From a virus: a stretch of DNA of 50,025 nt. The translations under genes and the position numbers were made by a program. Location: IMG/VR virus record IMGVR_UViG_3300006874_000018, positions 1-50,025 of that record; one strand, written 5' to 3'. How positions within the stretch are numbered: position 1 is the stretch's first letter; the number at the start of each line of letters is the position of its first letter. Below are positions 1,738-10,622 of the stretch, piece after piece. The notes under the pieces are model-generated. The model did not search any database, was not told the origin of the DNA, and saw only the letters and a program-made list of their open reading frames with translations.

Positions 1738-2226
1738 ATGGCTGACTTATTAATGAAAATGCCCGTACCGTATGAACCAAAAAGGAAAAATAGATTTATT
1801 CTTAGTTTCCCTTCTTCATTAGGTATAAACTCTTGGTATGTTGAATCAACATCAAGACCTAACGTACAGATAAACGCAACAGAGATTCCATTCTTAAACA
1901 CTTCAACATACGTTGCAGGTAGATTTACTTGGAATACCATTAACGTAACGTTTAGAGACCCAATTGGTCCATCGGCTTCACAAGCACTTATGGAGTGGGT
2001 TAGATTAACTGCAGAGTCTGTAACAGGTCGTATGGGTTATGCCGCCGGTTATAAGAAAGATTTAGACCTTGAAATGTTAGACCCTACAGGTGTTGCGGTC
2101 GAAAAGTGGATACTACAAGGTACTTTCTTAACTGATGTTAACTTCGATAGTTTGGGATATAGTGACGATGGATTGGCAACAATCACCGCAACATTACGTC
2201 CCGATAGATGTATTTTGGTTTACTAA
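1738..2226 (+). CDS. 19: Tail tube protein (T4 gp19-like)
   Basis: The 162-residue product has the size and layout of T4-type tail tube subunits (gp19, 163 residues). The start matches the family: MPVPYEPKRKNRFILSFP, then IPFLNTSTYVAGRFTW, then a central VTFRDPIGPSASQALMEWVR. The C-terminal half has the LDPTGVAVEKWILQGTFLTDVNF pattern, followed by a final beta strand region. Subunits stack as hexameric rings to form the DNA conduit inside the sheath. The gene has its own upstream octamer candidate and a downstream terminator, so it may be a single-gene unit suited to high copy number. Confidence 0.93.
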   Translation: MADLLMKMPVPYEPKRKNRFILSFPSSLGINSWYVESTSRPNVQINATEIPFLNTSTYVAGRFTWNTINVTFRDPIGPSASQALMEWVRLTAESVTGRMGYAAGYKKDLDLEMLDPTGVAVEKWILQGTFLTDVNFDSLGYSDDGLATITATLRPDRCILVY

Positions 2227-2303: not shown

Positions 2304-3059
2304 ATGGAAGATTCTAGACAATACGGACAACAAGAGTTTAACTTACCACATGACGTAGTAAGTTTACCATCGCAAGGTAAGTTTTATAAAAATAAGAAAA
2401 AAAGTCTTAAGGTGGGGTATTTGACCGCACAAGACGAAAATATTCTTATATCTATAGGTAATTCACAAAACAGTAATATTCTTAATGAATTAGTAAAAAA
2501 TAAAATTTATGAACCGGATATTCGTGTAGAGGATTTATTAGAGGGTGATTTAGAGGCGGTCATGATTTTTTTGAGAAACACTTCTTTTGGTCCCGATTAT
2601 AATTTTACATTAAGAGACCCAAAAACAAACAAACAATTTAATCACACTATAAAATTAGATGAATTAAATTTTAAAAAACCAAAAACTGAACCTTCAGAAG
2701 ATGGATTATTCCATATGACATTACCTAAGTCTGGTGCTAATATAAAATGTAAATTATTAACTGTAGGTGAGACGCAAGAGTTAAATGATTTGTTAAAACA
2801 ATACCCTTCTAACGTCACAACACCCGTAGTTACAAACAGACTAACAAAACAAATAGTTAGTGTTGATGATAATACAGACAAAGAATTTATTTCTAAATTT
2901 GTAATAAACCTACCAATTATGGATTCTAAATTCATAAGAAACACTCTTTCAGACTCCGAGCCCAAACTTGAGTTGGAAAGAAAATTGAACGCCCCGTCAG
3001 GAGAGGAGTTGACAGTTAGAGTCACCTTTGGGGTGGAGTTTTTTCGGCCTTTCTTCTGA
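2304..3059 (+). CDS. Tail/baseplate assembly chaperone, gp26/gp51-like (zero-frame product)
   Basis: The 251-residue product has the N-terminal signature of the T4 gp26/gp51 baseplate family, VVSLPSQGKFYKN (family pattern LPSkGkfY). A following segment, GYLTAQDENILISI, is typical of the same family. In T4 these proteins act in hub assembly. Its place directly before the tape measure gene is that of tail assembly chaperones in many phages. The zero frame ends FFRPFF then TGA at 3057-3059. A second frame overlaps this end and continues to 3231, so a longer 308-residue product by ribosomal frameshift is likely (see the recoding site at 3036-3048). Confidence 0.75.
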   Translation: MEDSRQYGQQEFNLPHDVVSLPSQGKFYKNKKKSLKVGYLTAQDENILISIGNSQNSNILNELVKNKIYEPDIRVEDLLEGDLEAVMIFLRNTSFGPDYNFTLRDPKTNKQFNHTIKLDELNFKKPKTEPSEDGLFHMTLPKSGANIKCKLLTVGETQELNDLLKQYPSNVTTPVVTNRLTKQIVSVDDNTDKEFISKFVINLPIMDSKFIRNTLSDSEPKLELERKLNAPSGEELTVRVTFGVEFFRPFF

Positions 3060-3231
3060 TATAAGGGTATCTCTGCTCGATGAGATTTATTATTTAGTAA
3101 AACACGCTAATTTTTCTTATGGGGATTTAATCAATATGCCCACATACGAAAGGAAATATTTCGTAAATAAATTAATAGAAGAATTTCAAAAAAAGGCGGA
3201 AATGATGGAAAAAGCTAAATCAAAAAGATAA
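3013..3231 (+). CDS. Overlapping second frame of the tail assembly chaperone (probable frameshift extension)
   Basis: This frame is open from just after a stop at 3010-3012 to TAA at 3229-3231 and has no ATG or GTG start before its conserved part; only a TTG at 3028 is available. The product reads LLDEIYYLVKHANFSYGDLI then NMPTYERKYFVNKL and a charged helix. The pattern of a helix, F/W-S/Y, then MP..eR..fv..L is typical of the C-terminal extension of tail assembly chaperones. It overlaps the upstream frame by about 45 bases and ends 25 bases before the tape measure ATG. I read it as the second half of a fusion made by a +1 or -2 frameshift. Independent translation from TTG is the alternative. 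Confidence 0.7.
   Translation, partial: QLESPLGWSFFGLSSDIRVSLLDEIYYLVKHANFSYGDLINMPTYERKYFVNKLIEEFQKKAEMMEKAKSKR
3036..3048 (+). promoter_or_regulatory. Candidate programmed frameshift site (+1 or -2)
   Basis: In the zero frame the mRNA reads GAG TTT TTT CGG, 12 bases before the TGA stop. Skipping the C after TTT TTT gives GGC CTT TCT and enters the downstream frame. The run of six T allows re-pairing, and CGG is a rare arginine codon here, where AGA dominates, so a pause is plausible. A -2 slip gives the same frame. The fusion would be 247 zero-frame residues plus 61 new ones. Confidence 0.55.
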
Positions 3232-3232
3232 G

Positions 3233-3240
3233 TATTTATA
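3233..3240 (+). promoter_or_regulatory. Candidate late-promoter octamer TATTTATA before tape measure gene
   Basis: The octamer, followed by T, ends 16 bases before the tape measure ATG. If it acts as a -10 element, the transcript would have a leader of roughly 10 bases. Confidence 0.45.
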
Positions 3241-3256
3241 TAATAATACTTAGTAT

Positions 3257-5848
3257 ATGTTTTTTATTGAAAATCCCTTAGATACCGCTAAAAACGCGGG
3301 TAAAGAAGCTCTTAACGATTTATCGAGTGGTGTTGATGCACTAAATAAGGCAACAGGTATTCTTGATGCAAATATTGTTAAAATTGGTGCTAGTTTAGCT
3401 AGATTAAATTTCCCACTTGCGGTTATTGAAGACACTGCAAAATTACAAGAACTCACTTACGAACTAACGACGCAGGCGATGGGTCAGACAGGTATTATTG
3501 GTGATGCTTTAATGGAAAGTATGGCGAACGCCACATATGAAACTGCAAAATTTGGTGTTGGATTAGAAGAAAATTTAAATCTAATAAAAAATATTAATGA
3601 TGTAATGAAAGTTAATACGTTACTTTCATCTGAACAAGTTATTAATATGCAGTTATTGGCAAGAAACGCAGGATTAACTTCTGCGGAAATAGTCCCGTTA
3701 ATTGAAGGTTTTGCGACAATAGGAGTGGGTACCGATAAGGCGATTGAAAATATTAGTACCATGCAAAAACAAGCTAGAGATTATGGTATTAATGTCGGAC
3801 AATTTATGAAAGATATTGGTACTAACATAAAAACACTTTCTTCATATAATTTTGCCGATGGTGTTGAAGGTTTTTCTAGAATGGTCGCAAAGGCACAAGC
3901 GTTGAGATTTGATGTGTCAAAAACTTTTGCGTTATCTGAAAAATTAATGGACCCTGAAGCGGCTATAGAAACGGCTGCTGGATTCCAAATGTTAGGAGGT
4001 GCTGTCGGTGATTTAGGAGACCCATTTAAGTTGTTACAAATGGCTCAAACCGATGCCGAAGGGTTACAAGAGTCTATTTTTAATATGGCCGAAAGTGCGG
4101 TTGTATTTAATGAAAAAACAGGAGAATTTGATATACCTGTTACTGAAATGTACCGTTTAAGAGAGGCGGCAAATCTTACAGGTATGGATTATCAGTCGTT
4201 AACTGAAACGGCAATAAAGGCGGCTGAAAGGACTAAAAAATTAGATTTATTAAGTACAATACCTGATGTACCTGAAGACTTTAAAGACCTAATTGCTAAT
4301 ATGGGTGATATTGACGCAGATGGTGAATTGGTCGTTAGTGTACCTTCTTTTGATGAGATGGGTAAAAAGGTAAGTACTGAAATTAAAAAGGCTTCAGAGT
4401 TAGATAGTAGTGACTTAGATGCGTTAACAAAACAAAACGAAATGAACGCACTTTCTGATAAAGAAATTGCGATGCAACAACTTACTGCTTTACAAAAATT
4501 AGCTTATGGACAAGACGCAGCTAAGGCAGGTACTTTAATGGCGGGAGTAAATACTCCTGGTGTTTATGACGCATTAGATGCGTTAGATTCATATTCTGAA
4601 ACTGTAATTGAAGGTCTCGATAAAACAATTAACGAAGACGCGTTAAAGGTCTATGGAGAAGGACTTACAGAATATATTGCTTCAGGACTTCAAGGTGAAG
4701 TAGCTAAAGACAAATTTCAGTCGGCTGCGATGAGTATGGTTAACACTATGACAACCGCAATCAAAGATTCACCAATAACATTTAAAGATAAATTAGATGA
4801 AACAAACATTTTAAAAAATGTTGACCTAATAGGTGCTCTTACAACAAAATTTAAAGAATTATCAGGAAATGCGTCTGGTTTAAAGGCGGAGTTTGAAAAT
4901 TTAATACCTGCTGGTTTAGCGGATAACTTAGGTCTTGTTGGTACAGGTCTTGCAACTATGAGTGATATTTTTGTTGTGGCGGTTAATAAAGCATTGGCTG
5001 CTGGAGGTGATTATATAAATGATATGGAAAGTGGTGAAGTTAGAACTGACCCAACCACAGGTCCGGAGGAAGATGATTTCATATTAAGACCTGGGATGGA
5101 CCCTATAAGTTTTAATAAAGATGACTTATTAATCGGAGGTACGGATTTATTTGGAGAAAAACGTAACGATTATATGGACCCAAGTATTTCAGGATTATTT
5201 AGTGAAGATTTAGGTAGAACATTAAATAGTGTATTATCGGACGATAATAGAAATAATATGGACCTACCTATAACAGAAATGTATGGGTTAAAAGAAGCTT
5301 TAGAAATTACAAGTGTAGGTATAGAAGATTTTTATAATAATTTAAAGGAAAATACAAATATTAATTTAGACATACCTGAGGTACCTATAACAGAAATGTA
5401 TGGGTTAAAAGAGGCTTTAGAAATTACAAGTGTAGGTATAGAAGATTTTTATAATAATTTAAAGGAAAATACAAATATTAATTTAGATATACCTGAACCT
5501 GAGGTACCTATAAGTGAAATGTATAAGTTAAGGGAAGTTTTAGAAATCGCCAGTAATGGTGTTGAAAGTTTTCAAACTACACTAAATGAAAGTACAATTA
5601 AAGAAGACGACTCATTTAAAAAATTAGCAGAGTTAGGAACTATAATAGAAAATATATCAACAGTTAATACTGTCGGTGGTGATGTAAGTTTAAATGTTGG
5701 TGGTAAGATAGATTTATCTATTGATGGAAGAAACTTACCTCAAAATATTTCATCAGAACAATTAGGAAAAGAAATAGTTAGTAATCCTGATTTTACAAGT
5801 AAATTAATGACTATATTTACTAACAGTAATAACACTTATTCTGTTTGA
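3257..5848 (+). CDS. Tail tape measure protein (gp29-like by position)
   Basis: The 863-residue product is mostly predicted helical (Ala, Leu, Glu and Lys rich) and directly follows the tail chaperone pair, the standard place for the tape measure. It would set tail length during tube assembly. If mostly extended helix at about 1.5 angstroms per residue, it implies a tail near 130 nm. The middle and C-terminal parts contain a recurring module (I/V)P(I/V)(T/S)EMYxLxEA, once near residue 295 and three times between about 670 and 790, including two nearly identical 39-residue copies. The C-terminal end has a small beta-rich segment, VGGDVSLNVGGKIDLSIDG. I did not see a peptidase or lysozyme domain. 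The start is the first ATG after the octamer. Confidence 0.78.
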   Translation: MFFIENPLDTAKNAGKEALNDLSSGVDALNKATGILDANIVKIGASLARLNFPLAVIEDTAKLQELTYELTTQAMGQTGIIGDALMESMANATYETAKFGVGLEENLNLIKNINDVMKVNTLLSSEQVINMQLLARNAGLTSAEIVPLIEGFATIGVGTDKAIENISTMQKQARDYGINVGQFMKDIGTNIKTLSSYNFADGVEGFSRMVAKAQALRFDVSKTFALSEKLMDPEAAIETAAGFQMLGGAVGDLGDPFKLLQMAQTDAEGLQESIFNMAESAVVFNEKTGEFDIPVTEMYRLREAANLTGMDYQSLTETAIKAAERTKKLDLLSTIPDVPEDFKDLIANMGDIDADGELVVSVPSFDEMGKKVSTEIKKASELDSSDLDALTKQNEMNALSDKEIAMQQLTALQKLAYGQDAAKAGTLMAGVNTPGVYDALDALDSYSETVIEGLDKTINEDALKVYGEGLTEYIASGLQGEVAKDKFQSAAMSMVNTMTTAIKDSPITFKDKLDETNILKNVDLIGALTTKFKELSGNASGLKAEFENLIPAGLADNLGLVGTGLATMSDIFVVAVNKALAAGGDYINDMESGEVRTDPTTGPEEDDFILRPGMDPISFNKDDLLIGGTDLFGEKRNDYMDPSISGLFSEDLGRTLNSVLSDDNRNNMDLPITEMYGLKEALEITSVGIEDFYNNLKENTNINLDIPEVPITEMYGLKEALEITSVGIEDFYNNLKENTNINLDIPEPEVPISEMYKLREVLEIASNGVESFQTTLNESTIKEDDSFKKLAELGTIIENISTVNTVGGDVSLNVGGKIDLSIDGRNLPQNISSEQLGKEIVSNPDFTSKLMTIFTNSNNTYSV
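5265..5504 (+). repeat. Tandem in-frame duplication inside the tape measure gene
   Basis: Two adjacent copies with a 117-base period (5265-5381 and 5382-5504, the second with two extra codons) differ at only two positions over about 110 bases. Each encodes PITEMYGLKEALEITSVGIE followed by DFYNNLKENTNINLDIPE. A diverged third copy begins at 5505 (PISEMYKLREVLEIASNGVE). The near identity points to a recent duplication. Confidence 0.95.
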
Positions 5849-5888: not shown

Positions 5889-8800
5889 ATGCCAAGTGAA
5901 TTAACATTTAGTGCAACAGAAAACTTTAGAAAGAATCTTATAAAGAGAAATCTTCCTGCATACAAAAAAGGATACAAAGGTGACGAAAGGGCGGGTATAA
6001 AAGAATTTTTACTTAAAGAGAGAATATTTGAATCTAATTCAGATATTGAATATTCTAATATTACTGAATTTTCACAAAAAAGAGCTTATATTCAGAACGC
6101 TTATGGACCTGACGGAGGTTATGACAGGTCAGTAGATATTGATGACGTACATAGAAAAATAAGAATACAAGAGGAGTATTATACATTTATAGCATCTACA
6201 TATACGGCATTTAATCTACTAACAAGAAGAAACCCAAACGGAAATAACGGAAGACTCAGAGAAGATTCCGATTTAACAAGAATTGCCGCAAAACAACTAA
6301 AAACGCAATTTCAATATAGAATTGGTGAAGAAGTTAGACAACAAACTTTAGGTAGAATAAATTTATTAGATGCCCTATCGGACCCATTTGACGCCGTTGC
6401 AATCGCTACAGGTAATGAACAAGTAATAGAGAGTGATTGGAAAATATCCGTACCCGATAATGTAGTTGGTAAGGGTTTAGACTTCATAAGTAGAATATCT
6501 GGTGTGTACTCACCTTATTCTTGGATACCTGGCAATTACTTTAACGAAGTAGTTCCACAATCAAGTATAAATCAATCAACCAATTATTCTACAGGAGGAG
6601 AATTTCAAGAAAGAGGAACCTTATTACCACAAGCAAACAGAAAATCATCAGAAGATTTTTTATCAAACACAGGTAGAGGTCAAACCAAAAGACTATTTAA
6701 ATCTTTAGAATTAAATGTTTATGCACCTGACTATACAGATAATAGTAGGTCATTTGGCATAAACCCACCACCGGGTAACTTTTATTTAGGTAGTAAAAAT
6801 AGTAATCCTACAGACATAATATCACCTGTAGACGAACTACCAATCAATCAATTCGGAAATAGAGTTAGAACACCAGTTAGAGGTTATTCAGAATTAGGTA
6901 AAGAATACGAAAACAAAATTTCAACCAACAATTTTAAGTTTGGTTTAAATGGAACAAAATACTTAAGAAACAATACTAAAACAAATAATAGTTATGATGC
7001 ACCTAGATTACAAGGTGGTTTTACATGGACCAGTATTGAAAGTGAAAAAGGTGCGGGAAGAAAGGCTACCGAAGGAGGCGGATTAGGTTCTACGGACAGT
7101 AACTACTCTTCAAACATACAGAGCACGTGGGAAGGAACTACGTCAACAAAGTATGGTTTCACACCTGGCTCAATATTAGATGATACCCAAAGGCTTATAG
7201 ATGCCGCAGATGGTCTATCGGGTGATAAAAAATTACAACATGTTGGTAATGCTATTAGTCAGGTAAGTAAAGTATTTAACGATGGAACAAGAGAAATGAC
7301 TAAGGGGTCTATGGTGTATCAATACACTGATAACGAAACAGGAGAACCCGTCGGAGTGGAGTACTGTAGAGTTTTTACTAAAGATATACCATACCTTACC
7401 AACAGTGATTTACAAAAAAGTGAAGGAATAACAAATCAAAACAGAAGATTTAACTATTCTATTTTAGATAACACCTTTAACCTAAACATTGCACCTTGGA
7501 GCAACCAAGATTCTACAAATATTCAAGAAAACAAAGTTAAAAAGTATATGTTTTCTATAGAAAATTTAGCTTGGAGGTCGTCAAGTAGAAAGGGTTTTAC
7601 ATACCAAGATTTACCTGTATGTGAAAGAGGACCAAATGGGGGTAGGATAATGTGGTTTCCTCCATATGACATAAAAGTATCGGAACAAAACAGTACTAAT
7701 TGGACCGCTAATGAGTTTTTAGGAAGACCTGAACCAATTTACACTTATAATAATACAACACGTCAAGGTTCATTAAGTTGGAAAATTATTGTAGACCACC
7801 CGTCTATTTTGAATGATATTGTCAAAAAAAGACTTAGTGGTAAAGACCAACAAAAAGTTAATGATATTGTAGACTCATTCTTTGCGGGATGTAAAAAATA
7901 TGATATTAATGAATTAGCAGAAATATACCCCCAATTCACAACGGAGGAAATTACTGAAATAATTACAAAAACTACAGATGTTATAGAATATGAGGCATGG
8001 TCTAAAGAAATACAATCACCAGGAGAACCAATAATTACACAACCAGTTGTTGAGACATATACTAAACAAATAACAGAAGAAGATTATAGATATGAGTTTT
8101 ACTTTGATAATGACATACCACCTAAAACAAGTAGTACAGAACCATTAACCACCGAAGAATTATATTCTACATCTATTAACACTTATATAGATAGAAAGGC
8201 AGATTATTTAATTGAAGCAAATGAACCACAAAAAGAATCTGTACAAAACTTTTTTGAAAAATATATAACAACGGGTGATAGTGGATTTAATTATATTGAG
8301 TATAAAACAAAAATTTTAACACAAAAGATAAAAGAAGCGGTCGATAATGGTGCTCGAATTAATATCACCTTAAAAGGTTCTGCGTCCGCACCAAACAGTA
8401 AACAATACAATAAAGACTTATCTGAAAGAAGAATTGATTCAGTTAGAAAATATATTTTAAGTTTTAATGGATTAGATAAGTTTTCAGATAAAATAAAAAT
8501 TGATAGTATATCAGAAGGTGAAGAAAGTGTTGCAACACCAGGAGGTGGAGACGCAACATTTAATTGTCAAGACCCCTTTGATAATACCCAAGACAAAACA
8601 TATTCGGCAAGGGCAATGGCGTGTAGAGCGGTCGTTTTTGATAATATAGAAGAAATAGACCCCCCACCACCAGAAATACCCGAACCTGAAATAACCGAAA
8701 CTATAATCACAGATAACATAACAGGAAGGACTCCTCAGGTTATTAGAAAGTATGAACAAGAAGAAAGAACAAGAAAAATAATTACACAAACAATAGTTAA

Positions 8801-10622
8801 AAAACTTTTAACGGAGTGTGACTATTTTGAAATGATGAACGAAGAAACCCCAAGGGTATATCAAGGGATAACGGAAAAAATAAAACATTTCCAACCCGCA
8901 TTCCATTCTATTACTCCTGAAGGTTTAAACAGTCGACTTACTTTTTTACAACAGTGTTTAAGACCGGGAGATACAATACCTGTAATCGGTGAAGACGGAA
9001 AACCAAGAAAAGGTGATGTTAAAAACACTGCGTTTGGTAGTCCACCAATATGTGTATTGAGAATTGGTGACTTCTACCACACTAAGATTGCTATTAACCA
9101 AATAGGTATTAACTATGAACCGTTAACTTTTGACTTAAACCCTGAAGGTATAGGAGTCCAACCTATGATTGCGGACATTAACATGTCGTTTTATTTTATA
9201 GGGGGTCACGGGTTAAAAGAACCTGTATCGAGATTACAAAACGCGTTATCATTTAATTATTACGGTAATACTGAAGTTTATGACGACAGGGCAATAGATA
9301 CTGAACCAAGAAAAGAACTTACTGAAGAGGATATAAATCAAATAAATAATTTGACTGACTCACCGTTAGGGGACGAACAGGTCCCTGTTGAAGCGGGTGA
9401 CAGTATAGGTGAGGTAACTAGTACTAACCCTAATGGTGACTTCTATACGGGAAATATAAATTACAAGTCTTCGTTTAAAGATTATATTAATAAGTCTCAA
9501 ACATATACTCAAAATATTATCAATACCTTAGAAACGATTAATATTAATCAATCTAAAATTGGTTTATATTATTTCACAAAAACAAGAAAATATACTGACG
9601 GTTTAATAACAGGTTATTTAGACGGTAACAATACACTATCAACTAATATATTTGGTAAACCTGAAAACATACCAAATCTAACTATAGACTTATCTGAAAA
9701 ACTTTTACAAGATGTTACTGATGAAACAAATCCGTTTTTAAGTAACATAGGTAACCAAAATTTTGTTAGTACTGACATTAAAAAATTTAAGAAAAACTTA
9801 AGGTCATATATTACAAATAAAATAAATGTATTTCCTGAATATTTTAATAATAGTTTTTTTGATTTAATTACTAATCAGATGGACTTAATTAGAATGATAG
9901 ATGAATTTAATTTGATAACCACAAATACTGATGGGTTTAGACTTAAATCAGGTAGAAACGTTATTTTAGATTTAACAGGGACAACAGATGTAGATGTATC
10001 GTCGACACAATCAAATACAAATGAAGAATTGATTGCTGATATACAAACGGTTGGATTTGATTTACAGACTTTCTATGATGAAATATTTGAAGATAACGGA
10101 CTTATACCGTTTAAAGACAATTTATACCAAGGATTTTTAAGTGGAGACTTTGATACAGAACCACAAACAAGATTTTGTACAATTGCTTTTGAAGACATAT
10201 TAAAAGACCCTGAAGAATTTAAATCAACAATTTTAGGGGAAGAACTACAAAGTAAAAATGAATGGGTAAGATATGTAAATGTTATTGTTTACGGAGTACC
10301 TGAAATTCCTACATCATTAAGTTCAATATTTACGTTACAATCTGCGGCGATAGGACAAACAAGCCAAACAGGGTTATTTAAAGTTTATAAAGAATTAGAG
10401 ACTAACTCTAAAGAAAGATTTGACAACTTTAAAAACAGTAATAACGTACAGAAATTTACATTATACCAACCGTTTAACTTAGATAAAGAAAGGAAGTTTA
10501 ATTATACAAGAAAATATCAAGAAGACGCGGACCAAACAAAAGTCGGGTATTTTGATACCACATTTAAATTGGTTAACTCAGGACCACTAAACTCATATAA
10601 TGAAAAATATACACTTAACTAA
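5889..10622 (+). CDS. Large baseplate protein with embedded OmpA-like domain
   Basis: The product has 1577 residues and no overall family that I can name. Residues about 780-880 match the OmpA-like peptidoglycan-binding fold: INITLKGSASAPNSKQYN then KDLSERRIDSVRKYIL, which fits the consensus N..LS.rRa..V..yL and keeps its Arg. The usual GHTD Asp is replaced (GSAS). A Pro-rich hinge, IDPPPPEIPEPEI, follows near residue 925. Residues about 1050-1135 (PPICVLRIGDFYHTKIAINQ, then YEPLTFDLNPEGIGVQPMIA) resemble tube-like inner-baseplate proteins of contractile systems (gp48/gp54 or Afp7 type); this is a pattern-level inference. The stop overlaps the next start as TAATG, so the genes are coupled. 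It probably joins tube to hub and may touch the cell wall during infection. Confidence 0.7.
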   Translation: MPSELTFSATENFRKNLIKRNLPAYKKGYKGDERAGIKEFLLKERIFESNSDIEYSNITEFSQKRAYIQNAYGPDGGYDRSVDIDDVHRKIRIQEEYYTFIASTYTAFNLLTRRNPNGNNGRLREDSDLTRIAAKQLKTQFQYRIGEEVRQQTLGRINLLDALSDPFDAVAIATGNEQVIESDWKISVPDNVVGKGLDFISRISGVYSPYSWIPGNYFNEVVPQSSINQSTNYSTGGEFQERGTLLPQANRKSSEDFLSNTGRGQTKRLFKSLELNVYAPDYTDNSRSFGINPPPGNFYLGSKNSNPTDIISPVDELPINQFGNRVRTPVRGYSELGKEYENKISTNNFKFGLNGTKYLRNNTKTNNSYDAPRLQGGFTWTSIESEKGAGRKATEGGGLGSTDSNYSSNIQSTWEGTTSTKYGFTPGSILDDTQRLIDAADGLSGDKKLQHVGNAISQVSKVFNDGTREMTKGSMVYQYTDNETGEPVGVEYCRVFTKDIPYLTNSDLQKSEGITNQNRRFNYSILDNTFNLNIAPWSNQDSTNIQENKVKKYMFSIENLAWRSSSRKGFTYQDLPVCERGPNGGRIMWFPPYDIKVSEQNSTNWTANEFLGRPEPIYTYNNTTRQGSLSWKIIVDHPSILNDIVKKRLSGKDQQKVNDIVDSFFAGCKKYDINELAEIYPQFTTEEITEIITKTTDVIEYEAWSKEIQSPGEPIITQPVVETYTKQITEEDYRYEFYFDNDIPPKTSSTEPLTTEELYSTSINTYIDRKADYLIEANEPQKESVQNFFEKYITTGDSGFNYIEYKTKILTQKIKEAVDNGARINITLKGSASAPNSKQYNKDLSERRIDSVRKYILSFNGLDKFSDKIKIDSISEGEESVATPGGGDATFNCQDPFDNTQDKTYSARAMACRAVVFDNIEEIDPPPPEIPEPEITETIITDNITGRTPQVIRKYEQEERTRKIITQTIVKKLLTECDYFEMMNEETPRVYQGITEKIKHFQPAFHSITPEGLNSRLTFLQQCLRPGDTIPVIGEDGKPRKGDVKNTAFGSPPICVLRIGDFYHTKIAINQIGINYEPLTFDLNPEGIGVQPMIADINMSFYFIGGHGLKEPVSRLQNALSFNYYGNTEVYDDRAIDTEPRKELTEEDINQINNLTDSPLGDEQVPVEAGDSIGEVTSTNPNGDFYTGNINYKSSFKDYINKSQTYTQNIINTLETININQSKIGLYYFTKTRKYTDGLITGYLDGNNTLSTNIFGKPENIPNLTIDLSEKLLQDVTDETNPFLSNIGNQNFVSTDIKKFKKNLRSYITNKINVFPEYFNNSFFDLITNQMDLIRMIDEFNLITTNTDGFRLKSGRNVILDLTGTTDVDVSSTQSNTNEELIADIQTVGFDLQTFYDEIFEDNGLIPFKDNLYQGFLSGDFDTEPQTRFCTIAFEDILKDPEEFKSTILGEELQSKNEWVRYVNVIVYGVPEIPTSLSSIFTLQSAAIGQTSQTGLFKVYKELETNSKERFDNFKNSNNVQKFTLYQPFNLDKERKFNYTRKYQEDADQTKVGYFDTTFKLVNSGPLNSYNEKYTLN

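Follow-up and report, generated by a model that had tools for sequence, protein, structure and literature searches.

The 50,025-base window analysed here, which is an entire IMG/VR virus record, contains a tail gene in which programmed +1 ribosomal frameshifting very probably gives rise to two isoforms of a tail assembly chaperone; we infer the slippage, its direction and its rate from sequence comparison. A large group of contractile-tailed, T4-related phages appears to obtain two versions of this chaperone from a single gene in the same way. An earlier sequence-only reading of the window had called a probable programmed +1 (or -2) frameshift at this place. Our analysis supports that interpretation and favours +1, and it extends beyond it by describing an RNA hairpin upstream of the slip site and a correspondence of the two predicted products to gp26 (short) and gp51 (long) of T4.

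Gene layout at the junction

The frame-0 gene ends in GVEFFRPFF, with its stop codon at 3057, and is overlapped by a +1 frame that stays open between 3013 and its stop codon at 3229-3231 (Table 1). The two frames are joined at GAG TTT TTT C-GGC (3039-3046), where dropping C3045 after the TTT at 3042-3044 gives an unbroken fusion of 308 residues. Our translation reproduced exactly what the sequence-only reading had seen here, namely a frame ending in FFRPFF-stop, an overlapping +1 frame contributing 61 residues, and a 308-residue fusion made by skipping a C. The second frame had also been described as free of ATG and GTG, which is correct up to 3135; nevertheless, an ATG is present at 3136, and a TTG at 3028.

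The chaperone gene is preceded by the C-terminal part of a tail sheath gene and by the tail tube gene. Between these two lies an ORF (770-1624) whose start, ...KYYAFDWDDNIVIMPTQIML, resembles by eye a HAD-type phosphatase motif, and which gave weak matches only in family searches. The tape measure gene that had been said to follow the junction is represented by an 863-aa ORF in the appropriate position and in synteny with phage immuto, but the family-model searches returned no match for it. We also observed near-exact copies of a stretch of ~ 40 residues (ITEMYGLKEALEITSVGIEDFYNNLKENTNINLDIPE) in this ORF. The next gene, a 1577-aa ORF at 5889-10622, has no PHROG match, and its stretch YNKDLSERRIDSVRKYIL looks like an OmpA-type peptidoglycan-binding domain.

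Table 1. Features at and around the chaperone junction, in window coordinates.
Feature	Position	Strand	Basis or remark
Tail tube protein	1738-2226	+	phrog_4542, E 1.4e-28; directly upstream of the chaperone gene
Frame-0 ORF, short chaperone form, 251 aa	2304-3059	+	PF12322 and phrog_150 matches; T4 gp26/gp51 family
Long form, 308 aa, predicted as a +1 frameshift fusion with C3045 skipped	2304-3231	+	Translation; AlphaFold2
Outer stem, 5' arm (GCCCC)	2991-2995	+	Pairs with 3030-3034
Purine-rich conserved bulge, 10 nt	2996-3005	+	Window GUCAGGAGAG; family consensus NUCAGGAGAA; contains UCAGGAGA
Inner hairpin, 7-bp stem (3006-3012 / 3022-3028), 9-nt loop	3006-3028	+	One mismatch in the window
Outer stem, 3' arm (GGGGU)	3030-3034	+	GGGG 9-12 nt before the P-site codon
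Slip site TTT TTT CGG	3039-3047	+	P-site TTT 3042-3044 would re-pair with TTC 3043-3045; A-site CGG; skipped base C3045
+1-frame domain, 61 aa + stop; gp51-like C-terminal extension	3046-3231	+	dN/dS, phrog_634, hhalign
Putative tape measure protein ORF, 863 aa	3257-5848	+	Position; syntenic to the gene annotated as tape measure in Flavobacterium phage immuto

Conservation and constraint of the slip site

Scans of IMG/VR recovered 236 loci with a complete junction, 160 of them in family A, to which the window belongs, and 76 in family B. Dereplication at 95% left 102 and 60 loci, respectively (162 altogether); two further loci are contig ends and lie outside the 236. In all 236 viral relatives, the +1 frame overlaps frame 0 and runs past the frame-0 stop. 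The expectation that site and overlap would be conserved in homologues was thus borne out at the nucleotide level, with double coding accounting for some of the base conservation past the shift, and the junction is real and far beyond chance. Past the frame-0 overlap, purifying selection acts on the +1 domain, dN/dS being 0.076 (family A) and 0.092 (family B). A sequencing error or a decayed gene would account for nothing beyond the frame break itself, and conservation refutes this explanation: sequenced isolates and over 160 dereplicated assemblies share the identical break, and dN/dS downstream of it is below 0.1.

The same +1 frame relation is kept by six divergent phages. Sites in distant phages are TTT CTT TGG in immuto, TTT TTT TGG in Mel-JY01, TTC TTT CGT in SagM-GXN1, TTT TTT CAC in Bacillus phage SP-15, TTT TTT AGT in Listeria phage LIS04, and TTT CTA in the huge phage LR756508, all of them +1. 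One scan of genome contigs gave two loci only. The first, on a MAG contig (L252), shows the +1 overlap at a site of the family B type, TTT TTT TGG CCT; in the second, on a deltaproteobacterial MAG contig (L253), the second frame is -1. At 4400-4760 of L253, the frame-0 stop is preceded by a run of CCCCCC, and an internal ATG is present; this relative may represent the arrangement in a -1 version. The annotated records that we checked give the short form alone, or list a hypothetical gene of its own for the second frame.

Family A sites follow the pattern TTT GGG Gnn GAn TTY TTT CGN, usually continued by CCT TTC TTC. Family B sites read TTT TTT TGG CCT, rarely CTT TTT TGG or TTT TTT TAC, and have TTT_TGG or TTT_TAC in place of TTT_CGN. 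The second TTT is invariant in the 102 dereplicated family A loci, and the codon that follows it is CGN in every one (CGG in 45), against 101 of 740 Arg codons (14%) elsewhere in the gene; the UUU P site, the C, and the restricted A-site codon are those of the UUU_C class (PA-X type). Moreover, the Gly codon at -9 is GGG in 99 of the 102, compared to 133 of 1191 Gly codons elsewhere in the gene. The slip site is the only place in the window (~ 15,900 codons) where TTT_CGN appears as an in-frame dicodon, and CGG has a frequency of 0.31 per 1000 codons. In the rest of the family A genes, TTT_CGN was found 8 times with 37.8 expected; we give little weight to this apparent avoidance because homologous genes recur from locus to locus and TTT is generally depleted before C-starting codons.

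The frame relation alone does not distinguish +1 from -2 slippage, in which, as in Mu gpGT, the tRNA-Phe on the second TTT would slip back two bases on the T run and produce EFFFGLSS instead of EFFGLSS. The predicted junction peptides of the window, VTFGVEFFGLSSDIR if +1 and VTFGVEFFFGLSSDIR if -2, differ by one Phe (147.07 Da); the tryptic junction peptide predicted for immuto under +1 ends in ...GVSFLGLTPEYR. Re-pairing two bases back is permitted by the six- or seven-T run of the window and most relatives, and in LIS04 (TTT TTT AGT A) pairing would be better after -2 than after +1. Nevertheless, with TTC TTT CGN (L138, L159, and SagM) and TTT CTT TGG (immuto), the first position would be mismatched after -2, whereas both re-pair after +1; re-pairing of a P-site UUU with UUC or UUU accounts for nearly every variant as +1, LIS04 being the exception. 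In family A, which has AGA as its common Arg codon, C directly follows the P-site codon in 102/102 loci, and this C is needed for +1 re-pairing, less obviously for -2. We must also note that Mu is the sole known natural -2 case (PMC3498833). Because of the broken-run variants and the CGN constraint, we favour +1 and consider -2 unlikely.

Transcriptional slippage, a stutter of RNA polymerase on T6 or T7 that would give mRNAs one base shorter or two bases longer, has its runs available (T6 in family A, T7 in family B), which are short for this process. Interruptions reduce the run to T3 in immuto, SagM, L138, and L159, all of which retain the overlap, and neither the CGN constraint nor the RNA hairpin would be explained, so that this origin of the fusion seems very improbable.

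We give an equally low probability to the second frame being a separate gene with its own start, reached by reinitiation or from the TTG at 3028. Its overlap with the CTTTTGGGG sequence makes this TTG common in family A, and some relatives have an ATG 16 nt past the stop. The sequence-only reading had regarded a separate ATG-started gene in the same place as evidence against frameshifting, and close relatives have none. The only ATG-started second ORFs found, near the end of the hub gene, are those of the remote jumbo phages LR756511 and XacN1 (L087, L088), and they lie in a different frame; the two-product solution differs between lineages in this respect. No start codon is conserved up to 45 nt past the stop: ATG is absent from that range in 47/102 family A and 27/60 family B loci, and 15 dereplicated relatives have no ATG, GTG, or TTG there, which leaves no start shared by all. 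The usable ATGs come after the conserved GLSS residues, and a separate start would not explain the TTT_CGN constraint.

A covarying hairpin upstream of the family A slip site

In family A, the slip site is preceded by a covarying RNA hairpin, new here, that ends 5 nt before it. The outer stem is paired in 99.4% of cells over 99 distinct family A sequences, with compensatory changes to CACC:GGUG (L103, L156) and GUCC:GGAC (L146). Three pairs of the inner stem show 21-28 double changes apiece, a count favoured by the discovery of this helix on the same alignment, with lower counts in slid controls. The bulge shows synonymous-site conservation, its Gly codon being GGA in 100/102 family A loci. 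The consensus energy of the hairpin region is -11.2 kcal/mol, compared to -0.2 (sd 0.6) in column shuffles (z -19); folded as a single sequence, the window at 2980-3075 is not unusually stable (z -0.88), and positions 2800-3400 have no Rfam match. Family B has no consensus fold, and therefore the hairpin is no universal requirement for the shift. Two other candidate structures were rejected. A long-range duplex, UCAGGAGAA:UUCUUCUGA, which would form a pseudoknot with the outer stem, did not covary above shuffles, and folds of 3036-3110 and 3045-3144, where a 3' stimulatory structure was sought, were no better than shuffles.

Shine-Dalgarno sites were detected in 5% of family A ORFs versus 8% in the background, and in 46% of family B ORFs versus 9%. 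None of the 26 window genes tested has a Shine-Dalgarno core upstream, which suggests that the host initiates translation independently of Shine-Dalgarno pairing, as in Bacteroidota. A Bacteroidota host is plausible for family A because immuto, an isolate that infects Flavobacterium (sp. LMO8), likewise has no such core (0/5 ORFs). RF2-type frameshifting has a Shine-Dalgarno helix ~ 3 nt upstream of the P-site codon. In the window, a GGAG ends at a distance of 3 nt from the P site, and family A also shows GAA, GAC, and GAT at that place. The conserved GGGG, positioned where a Shine-Dalgarno helix would sit, is explained as part of the hairpin stem. Since Shine-Dalgarno sites are almost unused in family A, the hairpin may stand in for the usual stimulator of RF2 type. 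A more specific idea, which we put forward tentatively and hold to be somewhat doubtful, is that in hosts without Shine-Dalgarno pairing (probably Bacteroidota) the GGGG:CCCC stem of the 5' hairpin would be a self-contained anti-Shine-Dalgarno substitute that pushes the ribosome +1 at UUU_CGN. To our knowledge, no such 5' hairpin stimulator has been described for +1 frameshifting. In phages that do without Shine-Dalgarno sites, the hairpin offers a test of +1 stimulation when the anti-Shine-Dalgarno of the ribosome is unavailable.

In the +1 mechanism that we propose, most ribosomes would follow frame 0 to the stop at 3057 and release a short, gp26-like protein. Some would pause with peptidyl-tRNA-Phe on UUU 3042-3044 and the rare CGG in the A site; the tRNA would re-pair with UUC one base on, C3045 would be skipped, and 61 more residues would complete the gp51-like long form. 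In family A, the forward slip is probably promoted by the hairpin as it folds again behind the ribosome. If lambda gpG/gpGT is a guide, the tape measure protein would be coated by the short form, and the extension would recruit tube subunits.

Relation to T4 gp26/gp51 and to known frameshifts

Frame 0 matches PF12322 (T4_baseplate, the gp26/gp51 family) with 44.6 bits (E 1.8e-11), above the gathering cut-off of 24.5, and phrog_150 (E 7.9e-15). These matches agree with the initial assignment to a gp26/gp51-type gene and support a hub/tail assembly chaperone, a function that we infer. In T4, gp26 and gp51 are hub assembly chaperones (PMC3004832). The two (208 and 249 aa) are paralogues, gp51 being longer by ~ 46 residues past the gp26 end. 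The +1 domain matched phrog_634 (E 0.0015) and, when aligned alone with hhalign, the C-terminus of T4 gp51 (E 1.5e-4, probability about 51%); the 308-aa fusion aligned to gp51 with E 1.4e-4. This is modest evidence that the +1 domain is homologous to the C-terminal extension of gp51, as in a gp51-type long form. As the +1 domain matches the part of gp51 past the gp26 end, frame 0 resembles gp26 and the fusion resembles gp51. Pfam DUF6760, also considered for the +1 domain, scored 13.8, far below its cut-off of 27. The AlphaFold2 model of the fusion has a mean pLDDT of 83.3 and a confidently predicted helical C-terminal domain. A structure search of a viral library with this model returned T4-like hub assembly proteins of similar length, and a search of the PDB returned nothing at E 0.001 or better.

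The tail-assembly frameshift of phage lambda gpG/gpGT is reportedly conserved, according to Xu, Hendrix and Duda (2004). As in lambda, a short ORF and an overlapping frame lie between the tube and tape measure genes, the second ORF has no conserved start of its own, the slip site is conserved at the overlap, and one gene would give two isoforms. Unlike the -1 shift of lambda, that of the window is predicted to be +1, all family A and B members having a +1/-2 frame rather than the -1 frame of a lambda-type XXXYYYZ site, and the window protein belongs to a different family, PF12322. Tail-gene frameshifts other than -1 are known from Mu gpGT (-2), Tsh of SPP1 and Listeria phages (+1), and HSTV-2 (+1, predicted) (PMC3498833, PMC5009743). 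These share with the window the departure from -1, whereas their sites are unrelated, and Tsh is a structural tail protein, not a chaperone.

The slip site itself would extend the UUU_CGN class, known from eukaryotic viruses, to a phage. In influenza A PA-X (UCC_UUU_CGU), +1 slippage at UUU_C was shown by mass spectrometry (PMC3498833). The predicted shift of the window has in common with PA-X the +1 direction, slippage on UUU_C in the P site, and an A-site Arg codon of the CGN type, but PA-X is translated by a eukaryotic ribosome and has no evident stimulator at the shift site, whereas the window is from a bacterial phage whose family A carries the covarying 5' hairpin. Bacterial RF2 (prfB) likewise relies on +1 P-site slippage with a stimulating element just upstream, a role that the hairpin may take here, and immuto uses CTT_T, as RF2 does. 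RF2 differs in combining a Shine-Dalgarno helix with an A-site UGA, where the present phages, without Shine-Dalgarno use, have a hairpin and a sense codon.

The closest comparison is with T4, which shares the protein family, gp26 corresponding to the short form and gp51 to the long form with its C-terminal extension. Frameshifting of the gpG/gpGT kind was described in a 2016 review as conserved "except T4" (PMC5009743). In PMC10885494 and PMC12846349, Vladimirov, Gautam and Davidson (2022) are credited with describing T4-like tail assembly chaperones as a short gene and a separate fused long gene, and PMC12846349 cites the same work for polyT slip signals in T4-like short-form genes. T4-like phages have two paralogous genes and reportedly no frameshift, whereas the window phage has one gene and a predicted +1 frameshift. 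The protein family of the long-standing exception would itself use +1 frameshifting across a large environmental phage group, and the gp26/gp51 arrangement of T4 is now testable as a duplication that replaced (or preceded) it.
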